Assembly (NCBI GenBank): GCA_017965445.1
Contig: JAGCPZ010000068.1
Span: 1-64,000 of the forward strand
Length of the DNA stretch: 64,000 nt
From: Fibrobacter sp.
GTDB lineage: Bacteria; Fibrobacterota; Fibrobacteria; Fibrobacterales; Fibrobacteraceae
Reading direction: 5' to 3'
Shown here: one piece after another, positions 51,404-56,289 of the stretch
How positions within the stretch are numbered: the first letter of the stretch is position 1
How the letters are laid out: every line of letters starts with the position of its first letter
The notes under the pieces: generated by a model
Told to the model about the DNA's origin: nothing
What the model saw: the letters and a program-made list of their open reading frames with translations, nothing else
Database searches by the model: none
Position numbers and translations under genes: made by a program

Positions 51404-51556
51404 ATTGTCGCTTGGACGCGCACAATTATAGAAATAACAGGGTGAACTGGCAAGGGAAATGTGCGTTTTTTTTGAAAAATTTTATATTCAGTCGTAAAAG
51501 AATCCAAACGAGTGTCAAATACAGCGAGCGATCTAAGTTTTGCCAACTATAAACCT

Positions 51557-52459
51557 ATGAGTCTCAATTCCAACCGTCTAGACGCATTTCTTTCGCACTT
51601 GGGTGTGGAGCGGAACCTTTCGCCCGCCACTATCCAGAGCTATCAAGAAGACCTGCGGCACTTTGTCGCATGGCTAGATGATTGCGGCATAGACCTCAAG
51701 GACTTGAAGCCAGAAAAGCTCGACGAATTCTTGACACTCACCGCCGGGCAAGTGGAGTACTCCCCCACGTCCGTCGCGAGGCACTTTTCAAGTCTGCGCG
51801 GGTTCCTCAAATATATGCAGAACCAGGGCGAGTACGATTACAGCACGGAATCGATGCTCGCCACGCCAAAGCTTGGGCATTATCTGCCGCAGTACCTCAC
51901 CCGTGAAGAAATCGACAGCGTTTTCGAAAGCGCCGCGAATGGCAAGAACCCGCTTCGCGATACGGCTTTGTTCGAACTCATGTACAGTGGCGGGCTGCGC
52001 ATTTCGGAAGCGCTCGGGATTAAGCTTGCGCAAGTGGACCTCGACAACGAGTGGCTCACGCCGATTGGCAAGGGCAACAAGCAACGCCTTGTGCCGCTCG
52101 GCAGCAAGGCCAAGGATAATTTGAAGGCATGGATTCAAGAAGGCCGCCCGCTCACGCACCCCAAAACAGATAATGTTATTCTAAACGCTCACGGAAAGCC
52201 TATGACCCGCATGGGGGCCTGGAAAATTGTGCAGCTGCATACGATGCACTTGAGCAAACAAGTTTCGCCGCATACGTTCCGCCACAGCTTTGCCACGCAC
52301 TGCCTAGAAGCCGGTATGGACTTGCGCGTTTTGCAAGAACTGCTCGGCCACGCCGACATAAGCACCACGCAAATCTACACGCACATCGATAAGGAATTCA
52401 TCAAGCAGGAACACCGTAGTCACCATCCGCGGGAAATCGCAAGACTAGATTCCAACTAG
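51557..52459 (+). CDS. xerD: tyrosine recombinase XerC/XerD
   Basis: About 300 residues from ATG 51557, matching the family N-terminus (LDAFLSHLGVERNLSPATIQSY); a GTG at 51512 would add 15 residues. SAM-like N-domain and catalytic domain with Arg in GGLRISEAL, HTFRHSFATH, LGHADISTTQIYTH (Tyr nucleophile) are intact. It resolves chromosome dimers at dif. XerC or XerD cannot be told from this alone. TATATTCA lies at 51483. Confidence 0.88.
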   Translation: MSLNSNRLDAFLSHLGVERNLSPATIQSYQEDLRHFVAWLDDCGIDLKDLKPEKLDEFLTLTAGQVEYSPTSVARHFSSLRGFLKYMQNQGEYDYSTESMLATPKLGHYLPQYLTREEIDSVFESAANGKNPLRDTALFELMYSGGLRISEALGIKLAQVDLDNEWLTPIGKGNKQRLVPLGSKAKDNLKAWIQEGRPLTHPKTDNVILNAHGKPMTRMGAWKIVQLHTMHLSKQVSPHTFRHSFATHCLEAGMDLRVLQELLGHADISTTQIYTHIDKEFIKQEHRSHHPREIARLDSN

Positions 52460-52535: not shown

Positions 52536-53612
52536 TTACACGCCAGCGTTTTCGAGGCGTTTCACGTGGCAGTAGGCCAATTCCTTAGTTCGTTCATCTC
52601 TGAGATGTAGGCTGGAGCCTTCGCAGTAGCGCCAATATTTGCATTTTTTGCATTCACCAATTCTCGCCCAGCTGCGGTCACGCATCACCTGATAACGGTT
52701 CTGCCAGACATCCCACAAATCGTCCTTGTAAATATTCCCTTGGATGTAATCACCGCGCAAGCTGGGGCACGCCGAAATGCTCCCGTCACAAAGCACAGAA
52801 GATATATTCACGCCTGCCCAACAGAAGAACGGCTGATCGCGAACCACTTTTTCGTAACTGCCCAGGAACCCTTCACAATCGTAATTCACATTGATGATGT
52901 TTTGCTTTTTGGCTTCACGGATAAACTCAAAAACCTGACGAAATTCTTCATTCGACAACAAGAACAGCGGATTGTCTTTTGCGCGCCCCTTCGGGAACAC
53001 GTTTGAAACTCTCCACCGCTTGACGCCCAGATTCAAAAGCAAATTAAAGATTTGCGGCAATTCCTTGAGGTTCTTGCGATTCACACAAGTCATCACGTCA
53101 AACAATATGCCATCGGTATGCGCCGCCATGTTAATCGCTCGTATAGCACGTTCATAGCTATGCGGATTTCCACGGAAATGATTGTGATTATCTTCAAGTC
53201 CGTCAAGGCTTATCGTGAGCGATTTGAGTCCGGCATTCAAAAGTTTCGTATAACGTTCAGGCGTCAACGCCAAAGCATTTGTCACCATGCCCCACGGGTA
53301 ACCACGAGCCTTGATTTCTTTAGCGCATTCTTCAAGGTCCGGCCGCATCAAAGGCTCGCCGCCCGTAATCACCACAGCAAAATCCTTAGGGTCAATATGT
53401 GGGGCCAAGTTATCCAAAACCCGCATAAAGTCTTCACGCGGCATGTCCGGAATCGCATCGACCAAGCAGTCGCTACCGCAATGCAAGCAGTGCAAATTGC
53501 AGCGCAACGTACATTCCCAGAAAAGGTACGTTAACTTGTGCGTTTTGATTTCGCTATGACGATAAAGGCGATACGCCTCAAGGGCAAGTTTCTTTTTTAA
53601 ACCAAGCTGCAT
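52536..53612 (-). CDS. radical SAM/SPASM enzyme of the rSAM/lipoprotein type
   Basis: 358 residues. The [4Fe-4S] SAM motif is C38NLHC42LHC45, with extra Cys 34 and 49 nearby. FAVVITGGEPL (GGEP, SAM ribose contact) and TISLDG follow. A C-terminal SPASM region (residues about 265-350) has CxxC (CKKCKYWRYC) and further Cys for auxiliary clusters. The N-terminus (HKLTYLFWECTLRCN) and the ending resemble TIGR04133, the radical SAM member of the rSAM/lipoprotein pairs of Bacteroidetes, from memory. The neighbour upstream is a lipoprotein, as expected for such a pair. Substrate unproven. Confidence 0.82.
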   Translation of the reverse strand: MQLGLKKKLALEAYRLYRHSEIKTHKLTYLFWECTLRCNLHCLHCGSDCLVDAIPDMPREDFMRVLDNLAPHIDPKDFAVVITGGEPLMRPDLEECAKEIKARGYPWGMVTNALALTPERYTKLLNAGLKSLTISLDGLEDNHNHFRGNPHSYERAIRAINMAAHTDGILFDVMTCVNRKNLKELPQIFNLLLNLGVKRWRVSNVFPKGRAKDNPLFLLSNEEFRQVFEFIREAKKQNIINVNYDCEGFLGSYEKVVRDQPFFCWAGVNISSVLCDGSISACPSLRGDYIQGNIYKDDLWDVWQNRYQVMRDRSWARIGECKKCKYWRYCEGSSLHLRDERTKELAYCHVKRLENAGV

Positions 53613-53616
53613 TTTT

Positions 53617-53728
53617 AGACGAGAGACGAAAGACGAGAGATTATTGTGATTAGTGATTAGATTTCAGTGGTTAGTGGTTGGTGGTTAGGATTTATGAATT
53701 AAGAATTAAAAATTAAGAATAAAAATTT
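53617..53728. repeat. long 7-bp-period array, 16 units
   Basis: In-phase 7-mers drift from AGACGAG, AGACGAA, AGACGAG, AGATTAT through TGTGATT, AGTGATT, AGATTTC, AGTGGTT (twice), GGTGGTT, AGGATTT to ATGAATT, AAGAATT, AAAAATT, AAGAATA, AAAATTT. Phase is unbroken for 112 bp. It begins 4 bp upstream of the radical SAM start codon. Confidence 0.92.
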
Positions 53729-53742
53729 CTTTTTTTATTTTT

Positions 53743-53805
53743 CATCTTTAATTTTTCATTTTATTATCCTGTTTACTAACCACTGTTTACTGCTTACTAC
53801 CTACT
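53743..53805. repeat. opposed 7-bp-period array covering the lipoprotein stop codon
   Basis: Nine in-phase 7-mers ending GTTTACT, AACCACT, GTTTACT, GCTTACT, ACCTACT; on the minus strand AGTAGGT, AGTAAGC, AGTAAAC, AGTGGTT, AGTAAAC and so on. The lipoprotein stop (53801-53803) is inside. It faces the other array across an AT-rich centre. Confidence 0.88.
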
Positions 53806-54793
53806 TTTCTTCGTCGCAGGTGCCGTTGAACATGCAGGGCGGGCCATAAACGGCAATCGGCTCATCAAAATTTAAAATTTCGTACTTGTCCAAAAATTCT
53901 TTTTCGCTTAAATCTCTATAAAATTCATTACTATAAGTTCTATTTCCTTTTTCATCTGTATCTATTGAAAAAGACTGGCCATCGTCACATTCAACATAAT
54001 CACCACGCTTGTAGCAAGGAATTTTCTCTTCAGGCTTTGAAACAAACGTAAGCATGTCATAACGGGCCTTGAATTCCGCTTCGTTATAGACCTTGCCATC
54101 GGAACATTTATATATCTTATCCTTGATGATGACAACACCGTATTTCGCACAGATTTGGTCACCGGAACAGCTCGGAAACTGCGATTTTTCCGTTACGGAT
54201 TCGACACAAGTCACCCCGCCATTACAACTCAATGTCGAATCGTTTTCTGCTTTTACACAAACGTTTGACACGACGCCGTACAACGGAACAGCTTCAAAGC
54301 CCTGACTAGAGCTCGACATTACCGGAACGCCGTACTTGGGAGCAATCATGCCCTTGCTGCTGGAACTCATTGGGACGCCGTACTTGGGCGCAATAATCAT
54401 GCCCGCACTACTACTAAGTTCGGCACCGCAAACATCTGGCGGACAACCGTAAAGGTCTGCATTCTGGTCCAAGCTACTGGAACTAACCTTCTCTTTGACA
54501 GAACTTGAAGACGCGACTACCGCGGAACTGGACTTTGCTGTTACAGAGCTGGAACTTGGATTCGGAGCGACCGCACTCGAAGCAGGCTTCTGCTCCGAAG
54601 AACTAGGAGTCGCATTTTCAACAGCGGAACTGGAGACAGGCGTGTTCGTTGCAGAACTCGAAGTGGGTTCTATATTAGTTCCCGAACTTGAATTTGGCGT
54701 AACTTGCGGAGCGGTCGGCGTGGAACTATTGTCGCATGAGTTCCAAAAAAATGCAGTCATCGCCAGCAAAATTTTTTTCCAATGCTTATACAT
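53801..54793 (-). CDS. lipoprotein with Ser-rich linker and Tyr-Gly repeats (likely radical SAM substrate)
   Basis: 330 residues. Signal peptide with Cys 20 as lipid site. Residues 25-108 are a Ser/Thr/Pro linker with SSS every 10-15 residues. Then come six Tyr-Gly motifs at 115, 138, 154, 172, 218 and 316, three of them in near-repeats (IAPKYGVP + MSSSS). The remaining domain is Cys-rich (12 Cys after residue 115). Tandem sites next to a radical SAM enzyme suggest that the YG(V/P) motifs are modified. Surface location is inferred from the lipobox. The start has AAGGAGGTGGTTTA upstream. Confidence 0.72.
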   Translation of the reverse strand: MYKHWKKILLAMTAFFWNSCDNSSTPTAPQVTPNSSSGTNIEPTSSSATNTPVSSSAVENATPSSSEQKPASSAVAPNPSSSSVTAKSSSAVVASSSSVKEKVSSSSLDQNADLYGCPPDVCGAELSSSAGMIIAPKYGVPMSSSSKGMIAPKYGVPVMSSSSQGFEAVPLYGVVSNVCVKAENDSTLSCNGGVTCVESVTEKSQFPSCSGDQICAKYGVVIIKDKIYKCSDGKVYNEAEFKARYDMLTFVSKPEEKIPCYKRGDYVECDDGQSFSIDTDEKGNRTYSNEFYRDLSEKEFLDKYEILNFDEPIAVYGPPCMFNGTCDEEK

Positions 54794-55023: not shown

Positions 55024-56289
55024 ATGTCTTCTAGAATTTCAAAAATTGTCACTCTTGCGCTTTTATACGCATTTACGGGTGTATTTGCCGGCCCAGGCCT
55101 TGCTGACGGGGCGGCTAAATTTGTCGGTAGCACAACTGTCAATGGGCCAGTACCTTCTGACTTCGGGACTTACTGGAACCAGATTACCCCAGAAAGGCAA
55201 TGCACATGGCGAACCGTCGAACAAACTCGCGGCAGCTTTGATTTTTCCGAATGCGACATCCCCTACAACTGGGCAAAAGAGAATAAAGCCACATTCAAAT
55301 TTCATGCCCTATTGTGGGCTTCTGGGAACCCCTCCTGGCTTAGAGACCTTAGTGCAGACGAAACAAAAGAAGCCATTACCGCCTGGTTCGATGCCGTTGC
55401 GGAGCGTTATCCGGACCTGGAATACATAAACGTGGTCAGTGAAGCCAGGCGAATCCATTCACAAATAGGCAGCAACAACAAAATTATCGAAGCCCTTGGC
55501 GGCGACAACGAAGACTATAAATTCATAACCACCGCGTTCAAGATGGCCCGCGAACGCTGGCCCCAAGCAATTCTCATTTACAACGACTACAATACAATCC
55601 AGTGGGAAAGGAATGATGGCATTGAGCTCGTCAATACAATCAAGAACAACGGGGCCCCAGTTGACGCCTACGGACTTGAAGGCAACGATTTGATTGTAAT
55701 GGGAACTGGCCCCATGAAATGCTACAGTCCAGACTTGCTCAAGAGCGCTCTTCAGGAGATTTACGAGAAAACAAAAACACATCTACTCATTTCTGAATAT
55801 AACATCAGCACCGAAGACGATAGCACACAAAAAAACTGCTTTTCGGAACATATTCCCGTTTTTATGGAAGCCGAATATGTAATGGGTGTCACCCTGTGGG
55901 GGTATCTCTACAACTTGTCCTTATTGCAATGCATCACAAACCCAGGGATTAGCTGTTGCGGCATCATCAGGGACGGCAAAGACCGCCCGGCAATGACATG
56001 GCTCAAGGAGTATTTCAATTTTCAGGAAGATAGTACAGCGAAAGATTCGACCATCGCGGATTCCACGATTTCAATCGGTGGCGGCCTCCACCTGCAAGCG
56101 AATACCCTCCAGGCATACGACGTATTTGACCTGAACGGCGTCCGCCTCGGCCGCCTGCGCGCCTACACTATCGACGAGGCCGTTTCGATACTCAAGAATA
56201 CTAGCGACATCAAGGTCCAGGGCATCTACATGCTCCGCTCCGTCAATAACGGCACCGTAAAGCAAGTGCGGATTGCACAGGCTAAATAA
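55024..56289 (+). CDS. GH10 xylanase-like enzyme with altered active site
   Basis: 421 residues. Signal peptide (cut near FAG) and a GH10 barrel (about 35-340): HALLWASGNPSW, INDYN-like IYNDYN, nucleophile Glu 258 in LLISEYN. The acid/base Glu 140 lies in YINVVSEA, where clan A enzymes have Asn-Glu; here the Asn is Ser 139. The loop YGLEGND replaces the usual GLQGH. A C-terminal strand-rich module (YDVFDLNGVRLGRLRAY...GIYMLRS) matches the terminal modules of other Fibrobacter secreted enzymes. Activity is uncertain. Confidence 0.82.
   Translation: MSSRISKIVTLALLYAFTGVFAGPGLADGAAKFVGSTTVNGPVPSDFGTYWNQITPERQCTWRTVEQTRGSFDFSECDIPYNWAKENKATFKFHALLWASGNPSWLRDLSADETKEAITAWFDAVAERYPDLEYINVVSEARRIHSQIGSNNKIIEALGGDNEDYKFITTAFKMARERWPQAILIYNDYNTIQWERNDGIELVNTIKNNGAPVDAYGLEGNDLIVMGTGPMKCYSPDLLKSALQEIYEKTKTHLLISEYNISTEDDSTQKNCFSEHIPVFMEAEYVMGVTLWGYLYNLSLLQCITNPGISCCGIIRDGKDRPAMTWLKEYFNFQEDSTAKDSTIADSTISIGGGLHLQANTLQAYDVFDLNGVRLGRLRAYTIDEAVSILKNTSDIKVQGIYMLRSVNNGTVKQVRIAQAK

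Follow-up and report, generated by a model that had tools for sequence, protein, structure and literature searches.

A candidate lipoprotein splicease system with repeated Tyr-Gly sites in a rumen Fibrobacter

A lipoprotein gene followed by a radical SAM gene

The window analysed here, a stretch of 64,000 nucleotides from a rumen Fibrobacter, carries a two-gene system that consists of a lipoprotein with Tyr-Gly (YG) sites and a radical SAM enzyme (Table 1). An earlier note on this DNA had placed a SPASM radical SAM gene directly behind a six-YG lipoprotein gene, and both ORFs were confirmed. The enzyme gene lies downstream of the lipoprotein gene on the same strand, after a gap of 188 bp. This spacer (window 53613-53800) is AT-rich and made of short near-repeats (ttaattcttaattcataa; ccaaccactaaccact; ctctcgtctttcgtctctcgtct); two tested stretches of it have no second copy within the window. 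The pair is flanked on the enzyme side by a convergent gene (51512-52459, plus strand) that resembles tyrosine recombinases, and on the lipoprotein side by a divergent one (55024-56289) that encodes 421 aa. The neighbouring ORFs give no sign of a larger operon around the pair. A promoter and terminator scan was uninformative, and no phage carrying the pair was found. The window genome (72% complete) contains one TIGR04133 copy above the cut-off.

Table 1. Features of the gene pair, in window coordinates
Feature	Position	Strand	Remarks
Lipoprotein gene	54793->53801 (53801..54793)	minus	ORF, 330 aa; putative substrate, six Tyr-Gly sites
Signal peptide MYKHWKKILLAMTAFFWNS	54737..54793	minus	precedes lipobox Cys20; putative leader for the enzyme
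Ser-rich linker, residues 21-112	54458..54733	minus	from sequence; length varies among orthologs
YG site 1, DLYGCP, Tyr115	54446..54451	minus	from sequence
YG site 2, PKYGVP, Tyr138	54377..54382	minus	from sequence
YG site 3, PKYGVP, Tyr154	54329..54334	minus	from sequence
YG site 4, PLYGVV, Tyr172	54275..54280	minus	from sequence
YG site 5, AKYGVV, Tyr218	54137..54142	minus	from sequence; invariant in ten orthologs
YG site 6, AVYGPP, Tyr316	53843..53848	minus	Y316, G317 invariant in ten orthologs
Cys-rich C-terminal region, residues 179-326	53816..54259	minus	10 of the 13 Cys of the lipoprotein
TIGR04133 radical SAM/SPASM gene	53612->52536 (52536..53612)	minus	358 aa; putative lipoprotein splicease
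N-terminal helix, residues 5-24	53541..53600	minus	ahead of the radical SAM barrel; AF2 model
CX3CX2C motif of the radical SAM cluster, C38, C42, C45	53478..53501	minus	followed by G46-S47
SPASM region, auxiliary-cluster C264, C282, C321, C324, C330, C348	52569..52823	minus	PF13186 match

The signal of the lipoprotein ends in FFWNSC, the last residue being the lipobox Cys. The protein has 56 Ser in total. Its Cys-rich domain, described before, is indeed there, with most of the 13 Cys in the C-terminal half, and so are the near-repeats PKYGVP, PKYGVP and PLYGVV (sites 2 to 4). In the mature protein Gly follows 6 of the 14 Tyr (binomial P about 1e-4), and GY does not occur. When ten Fibrobacter orthologs were aligned, Y218-G219 and Y316-G317 were found to be invariant, as are H4, W5, K6, K7, F15, F16, W17 and C20 of the signal peptide. 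Linker and copy number, by contrast, are variable, and L037, one of the orthologs, reaches eight YG sites by means of a duplicated SSSSKGMIAPKYGV unit.

The enzyme contains PF04055 and SPASM (PF13186) domains and matches TIGR04133 (rSAM_w_lipo) with 596.5 bits over 350 of 350 positions (cut-off 425). It also has the adjoining gene that is a trait of this family, a lipoprotein gene directly upstream on the same strand. The six SPASM Cys listed in Table 1 are invariant in 26 relatives, and G46-S47 is common to TIGR04103 and TIGR03913. The earlier note had suggested kinship with TIGR04133/TIGR04134 pairs. This is correct for the enzyme, according to the profile search, but not for the lipoprotein: since neither NCBIfam nor Pfam gave a match to it at E<=1, membership of TIGR04134 (cut-off 39.8 bits) was ruled out. 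The window lipoprotein belongs to a Fibrobacter-specific family of putative substrates. In NCBIfam (June 2026) TIGR04133 and TIGR04134 stand without an assigned function, and a literature search on the two, within whose reach Scott 2022 (Chem) and Richter 2024 (Chem Sci) did not fall, found no paper.

Tyr-Gly proteins beside the enzyme in other genomes

TIGR04133 was detected in 68 of 101 sampled Fibrobacteraceae genomes. Its distribution was also followed in 63 fetched loci, from assemblies labelled Fibrobacter, Bacteroidales, Treponema, Neomarinimicrobiota, Hydrogenedentota, CPR and deltaproteobacteria, the most distant of which have an enzyme that scores below the TIGR04133 cut-off. The earlier note had named a lack of co-occurrence of enzyme and YG lipoproteins in other genomes as one refutation of its proposal; co-occurrence outside Fibrobacter was in fact found in several phyla. 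Of 42 same-strand ORFs called directly upstream of a non-Fibrobacter TIGR04133 gene, 41 contain YG, whereas among background proteins of these loci (60-200 aa) it is found in 20 of 115. Per Tyr, YG amounts to 0.225 beside the enzyme and 0.063 in the background; the control dipeptide GY amounts to 0.029 and 0.067, respectively. Fisher tests were applied to the YG linkage, with related sequences counted at full weight. A chance origin of the YG sites was ruled out by the background proteins together with the GY controls. Ten further loci, in which no ORF was called by the script or which were read by eye, mostly have YG ORFs as well (for example L045, L049, L054, L091, L094 and L099).

The proteins beside the enzyme are otherwise dissimilar, YG being the feature in common. 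In Fibrobacter they are Ser/Cys-rich lipoproteins, and in Bacteroidota TIGR04134 beta-sandwich lipoproteins with a carboxypeptidase-regulatory-like domain. Another type comprises short lipoproteins with YG immediately after the lipobox Cys. The CPR candidates are small membrane proteins, 83-86 aa long, whose C-terminus is hydrophobic (AEYGVTY, LYGPPPAQALYGVP); those of deltaproteobacteria are KYGGPP proteins. It could be argued that YG is merely a docking or structural motif, or that the pairing is a coincidence of annotation and the enzyme acts on a substrate elsewhere. The recurrence of YG in proteins as unlike as those of Fibrobacter, Bacteroidota, CPR and deltaproteobacteria makes this very improbable. 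As judged from these sequence comparisons, the pairing of enzyme and YG protein is real.

Three loci labelled bacterium DS4.bin43, Moraniibacteriota and Microgenomates (L088, L090 and L092) have a TIGR04133-like enzyme with small YG proteins nearby, two of which have a hydrophobic C-terminus.

Within Fibrobacter, the signal common to the putative substrates reads MxYKHWKK(I/L)xLALTAFFWxSC. The conserved pairing and YG sites sought in this genus are apparent: YG is present in 78 of 82 untruncated KHWKK-signal lipoproteins, a set assembled from pattern searches and fetched loci and thereby enriched for loci fetched for their enzyme, and two sites are invariant in the orthologs (Table 1). Several KHWKK-signal lipoproteins are encoded far from any enzyme gene, one of them being the second in the window genome (contig C43). 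By hand count, a KHWKK-signal lipoprotein is present in at least 28 of the 34 sampled genomes of the genus Fibrobacter that have TIGR04133. Among the 20 genomes of the family without TIGR04133 there is one, in a genome that is 71% complete, and the remaining pattern hits in these 20 are chance matches. Within the genus, co-occurrence of KHWKK lipoprotein and TIGR04133 gives a Fisher P of 0.001. Since KHWKK lipoproteins occur away from the enzyme gene and yet co-occur with it, these data suggest that the enzyme may recognise the signal peptide in trans, as a portable tag.

Clustered runs of several different KHWKK-signal YG lipoproteins were seen in other Fibrobacter genomes (L043, L044; G054:C12, G094:C152), sometimes with two TIGR04133 genes. 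An aromatic-x-Lys signal motif across all phyla was also considered. It is found in 25 of 42 non-Fibrobacter targets and in 12 of 50 background lipoproteins, some of which are themselves KHWKK lipoproteins; being a tendency only, it was set aside as evidence.

Predicted chemistry and role

PlpX removes tyramine at X-Tyr-Gly and leaves an alpha-ketoamide; its natural sites are MYG and LYG, and the tags tested include PIRPLYGLPI and AVAAGYGVVFP (PMC11002830, PMC10533398). A Nostoc TIGR04103 gene adjoins a Nif11 precursor ending in IALYGLPPELF and a downstream partner of 71 aa. As this is the layout described for PlpX, TIGR04103 is most likely the family of PlpX (IPR026482). In our literature search IPR026482 appeared in one paper and TIGR04103 in none, and a paper on RiPP mining in Bacteroidales mentions neither lipoproteins nor spliceotides.

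TIGR04103 is the second-best profile for the window enzyme, with 144 bits, which is below its cut-off of 725. TIGR04053 and AhbD give 137 and 128 bits. These scores do not single out TIGR04103 and a tree was therefore built. In the maximum-likelihood tree, TIGR04133 (with a Fibrobacter paralog), TIGR04103, TIGR03913 and TIGR04103-like enzymes group together with support of 100/99, AhbD, AhbC/NirJ1, TIGR04053 and TIGR04347 being on the other side of that branch; other SPASM families are thinly sampled in it and PlpX itself is absent. A quick tree including PqqE and MftC gave the same grouping, more weakly. The clade has in common HCGS after the cluster motif and W200; in the outgroups G46 is absent, and S47 and W200 are rare. 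As for the sites, the 165 distinct ones in KHWKK lipoproteins have the consensus (V/I)(P/A)(L/K/E)YG(V/I)(P/V). With P/A at -2, L/K/E at X, V/I at +1 and P/V at +2, it matches the PlpX tags RPLYGLP and AAGYGVV (PMC10533398), and the P/A at -2 and V/L at +1 expected of PlpX-type sites are found.

Two further observations concern relatives of the enzyme. A TIGR04133 paralog (L143-L146; about 273-276 bits, below the cut-off) has directly downstream of its gene that of a zinc-ribbon protein, in which an IYGPPI site is conserved and a signal peptide is absent. On an Agathobacter rectalis plasmid (L104 3710-3916), a small unannotated ORF ending in NLFGPVMYGTGVRM lies beside a TIGR04103-like radical SAM gene and is possibly a missed precursor.

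The earlier note left the chemistry open. We think that it can be predicted from family kinship and site context: given the shared clade with TIGR04103 and the residues around YG, tyramine excision is the best reading. On this evidence the window enzyme would be splicease-like, yet not a member of TIGR04103. The main rival is another chemistry at YG, such as a Tyr side-chain crosslink, a Cys-Gly thioether or epimerisation, which would give a decorated or crosslinked lipoprotein without ketoamide. The solved folds nearest to the enzyme model (AF2, pLDDT 91.7) are the peptide maturases SkfB and SuiB, which make crosslinks; a PDB search by sequence revealed no near structural template for either TIGR04103 or TIGR04133. 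The similar profile scores to several unrelated families and the many Cys close to the YG sites of Fibrobacter lipoproteins fit such a chemistry too. Against it stand the clade shared with TIGR04103, the splicease-like context at -2, X, +1 and +2, and the fact that no crosslink partner residue is conserved beside YG across phyla, Cys being near in some substrates only. We regard it as unlikely. In many Treponema and Bacteroidales substrates, the lipobox Cys itself occupies position X (QACYGTP, SCYGMP), as seen in the upstream lipoproteins of L070, L073, L076, L079, L084, L096 and L099. The predicted change would then fall on the lipidated residue, which we count against the splicease reading. 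The chemistry may have diverged within the TIGR04133/TIGR04103 clade.

We consider it rather probable that the window pair is a lipoprotein splicease system in which tyramine is excised at YG and the product acts as a protease trap. Before export, the TIGR04133 enzyme would recognise the lipoprotein signal peptide as a leader and would excise tyramine at the Tyr-Gly sites, leaving a backbone ketone (alpha-ketoamide) at X, with a predicted mass change of -135.07 Da per YG site. The lipoprotein would then be exported by Sec, lipidated and anchored. The Ser-rich stalk and the Cys-rich domain would thus carry up to six electrophilic ketoamides in the envelope, presumably exposed at the surface, where their most likely role would be that of a reversible covalent trap for proteases.

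Ketoamides are reversible traps for cysteine and serine proteases. A sister system of about ten Fibrobacter genomes (L134-L142), not found in the window genome, gives an independent hint of this role. There, a TIGR04103-like radical SAM enzyme with a C-terminal extension is encoded beside a protein with 11-21 YG sites, mostly in KYGYP repeats (KYGYPCGVQDA-type), in which no signal peptide is evident. The N-terminal domain of this protein has a weak match to the chagasin family (Inhibitor_I42), with a best E of 0.00065 and a score short of the gathering threshold. The two PDB entries nearest to its AF2 model are EhICP2, a cysteine-protease inhibitor of Entamoeba, and amebosin; chagasin itself ranks lower. 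As a candidate splicease substrate with many sites, this protein may be more striking still.

Alternatively, tyramine could be excised and the lipoprotein be a precursor or an attachment device, whose ketones form covalent links with envelope or matrix amines, or whose modified segments are cut off and released. Ketones are known to condense with amines and hydrazines, the site adjoins the lipid anchor in some substrates, and the Fibrobacter proteins carry arrays of sites on a linker. However, no protease or exporter gene adjoins the pair among the ORFs of the window, the sister system has a domain resembling protease inhibitors, and spliceotides are cited as protease inhibitors (PMC11117315, PMC10373908). 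This alternative appears somewhat doubtful to us. Because of the ketoamide chemistry, the spliceotide inhibitors and the chagasin-like sister domain, a protease trap is favoured over covalent attachment, with modest confidence and by analogy.

It is quite possible, if not yet probable, that a large splicease branch, so far unrecognised, is formed by TIGR04133/TIGR04134 and their relatives. It would rewrite the backbone of envelope lipoproteins, with the signal peptide doubling as leader, and would place arrays of electrophilic ketoamides at the cell surface in Fibrobacter, Bacteroidales and Treponema of rumen and gut, as well as on CPR small membrane proteins. The members of TIGR04133/TIGR04134 come from Bacteroidales, Treponema and Fibrobacter of these two habitats. 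Should they be spliceases, backbone splicing would extend beyond specialised-metabolite peptides to membrane-anchored envelope proteins, a signal peptide would act as a RiPP leader, and new splicing tags and enzymes for protein labelling could be obtained. The study of Scott et al. 2022 (Chem 8:2659), which has 'peptides and proteins' in its title, is cited for 27 further characterised and 939 predicted splicease systems. Part of our proposal for TIGR04133 may already have been published.

Comparison with known systems

The closest parallel is PlpX/PlpY from Pleurocapsa. Both systems combine a SPASM radical SAM enzyme of the same clade with X-Tyr-Gly sites, the same flanking preference and several sites per substrate. 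The putative substrates here differ in being Sec-exported lipoproteins: the window protein starts with a lipoprotein signal peptide, and a Nif11 or nitrile-hydratase-type leader is absent from it. The window enzyme also differs in staying below the TIGR04103 cut-off and in that no PlpY-like partner was found for it, a tblastn search of all loci with the Nostoc partner, a very small query, giving nothing convincing (best E 0.063). We speculate that the N-terminal helix seen in the enzyme model may replace the missing partner. SkfB and SuiB, from the sactipeptide and streptide pathways, share the radical SAM barrel and SPASM domain as the closest solved folds, but they form side-chain crosslinks and are only about 16-20% identical to the window enzyme.

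The TIGR04133/TIGR04134 pair of Bacteroidota has the same enzyme family, a lipoprotein gene directly upstream and YG near the start of the mature protein. Its lipoproteins match TIGR04134 and have one or two sites, whereas the window lipoprotein has six, a Ser-rich linker and a Cys-rich region, and no beta-sandwich was found in it. Finally, the GDL-motif (DUF1843) system of TIGR03913 differs in its longer enzyme and its tiny peptides without signal peptide, and its enzyme belongs to the same clade as that of the window. Among five of its small peptides that were read, two have PYG near the N-terminus (RPYGPAM, IQPYGAG). These two (L101 4711-4881, L102 3290-3502) are encoded beside TIGR03913 enzymes, and the other three are without PYG. 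Judging from these peptides, TIGR03913 may share the chemistry at YG.
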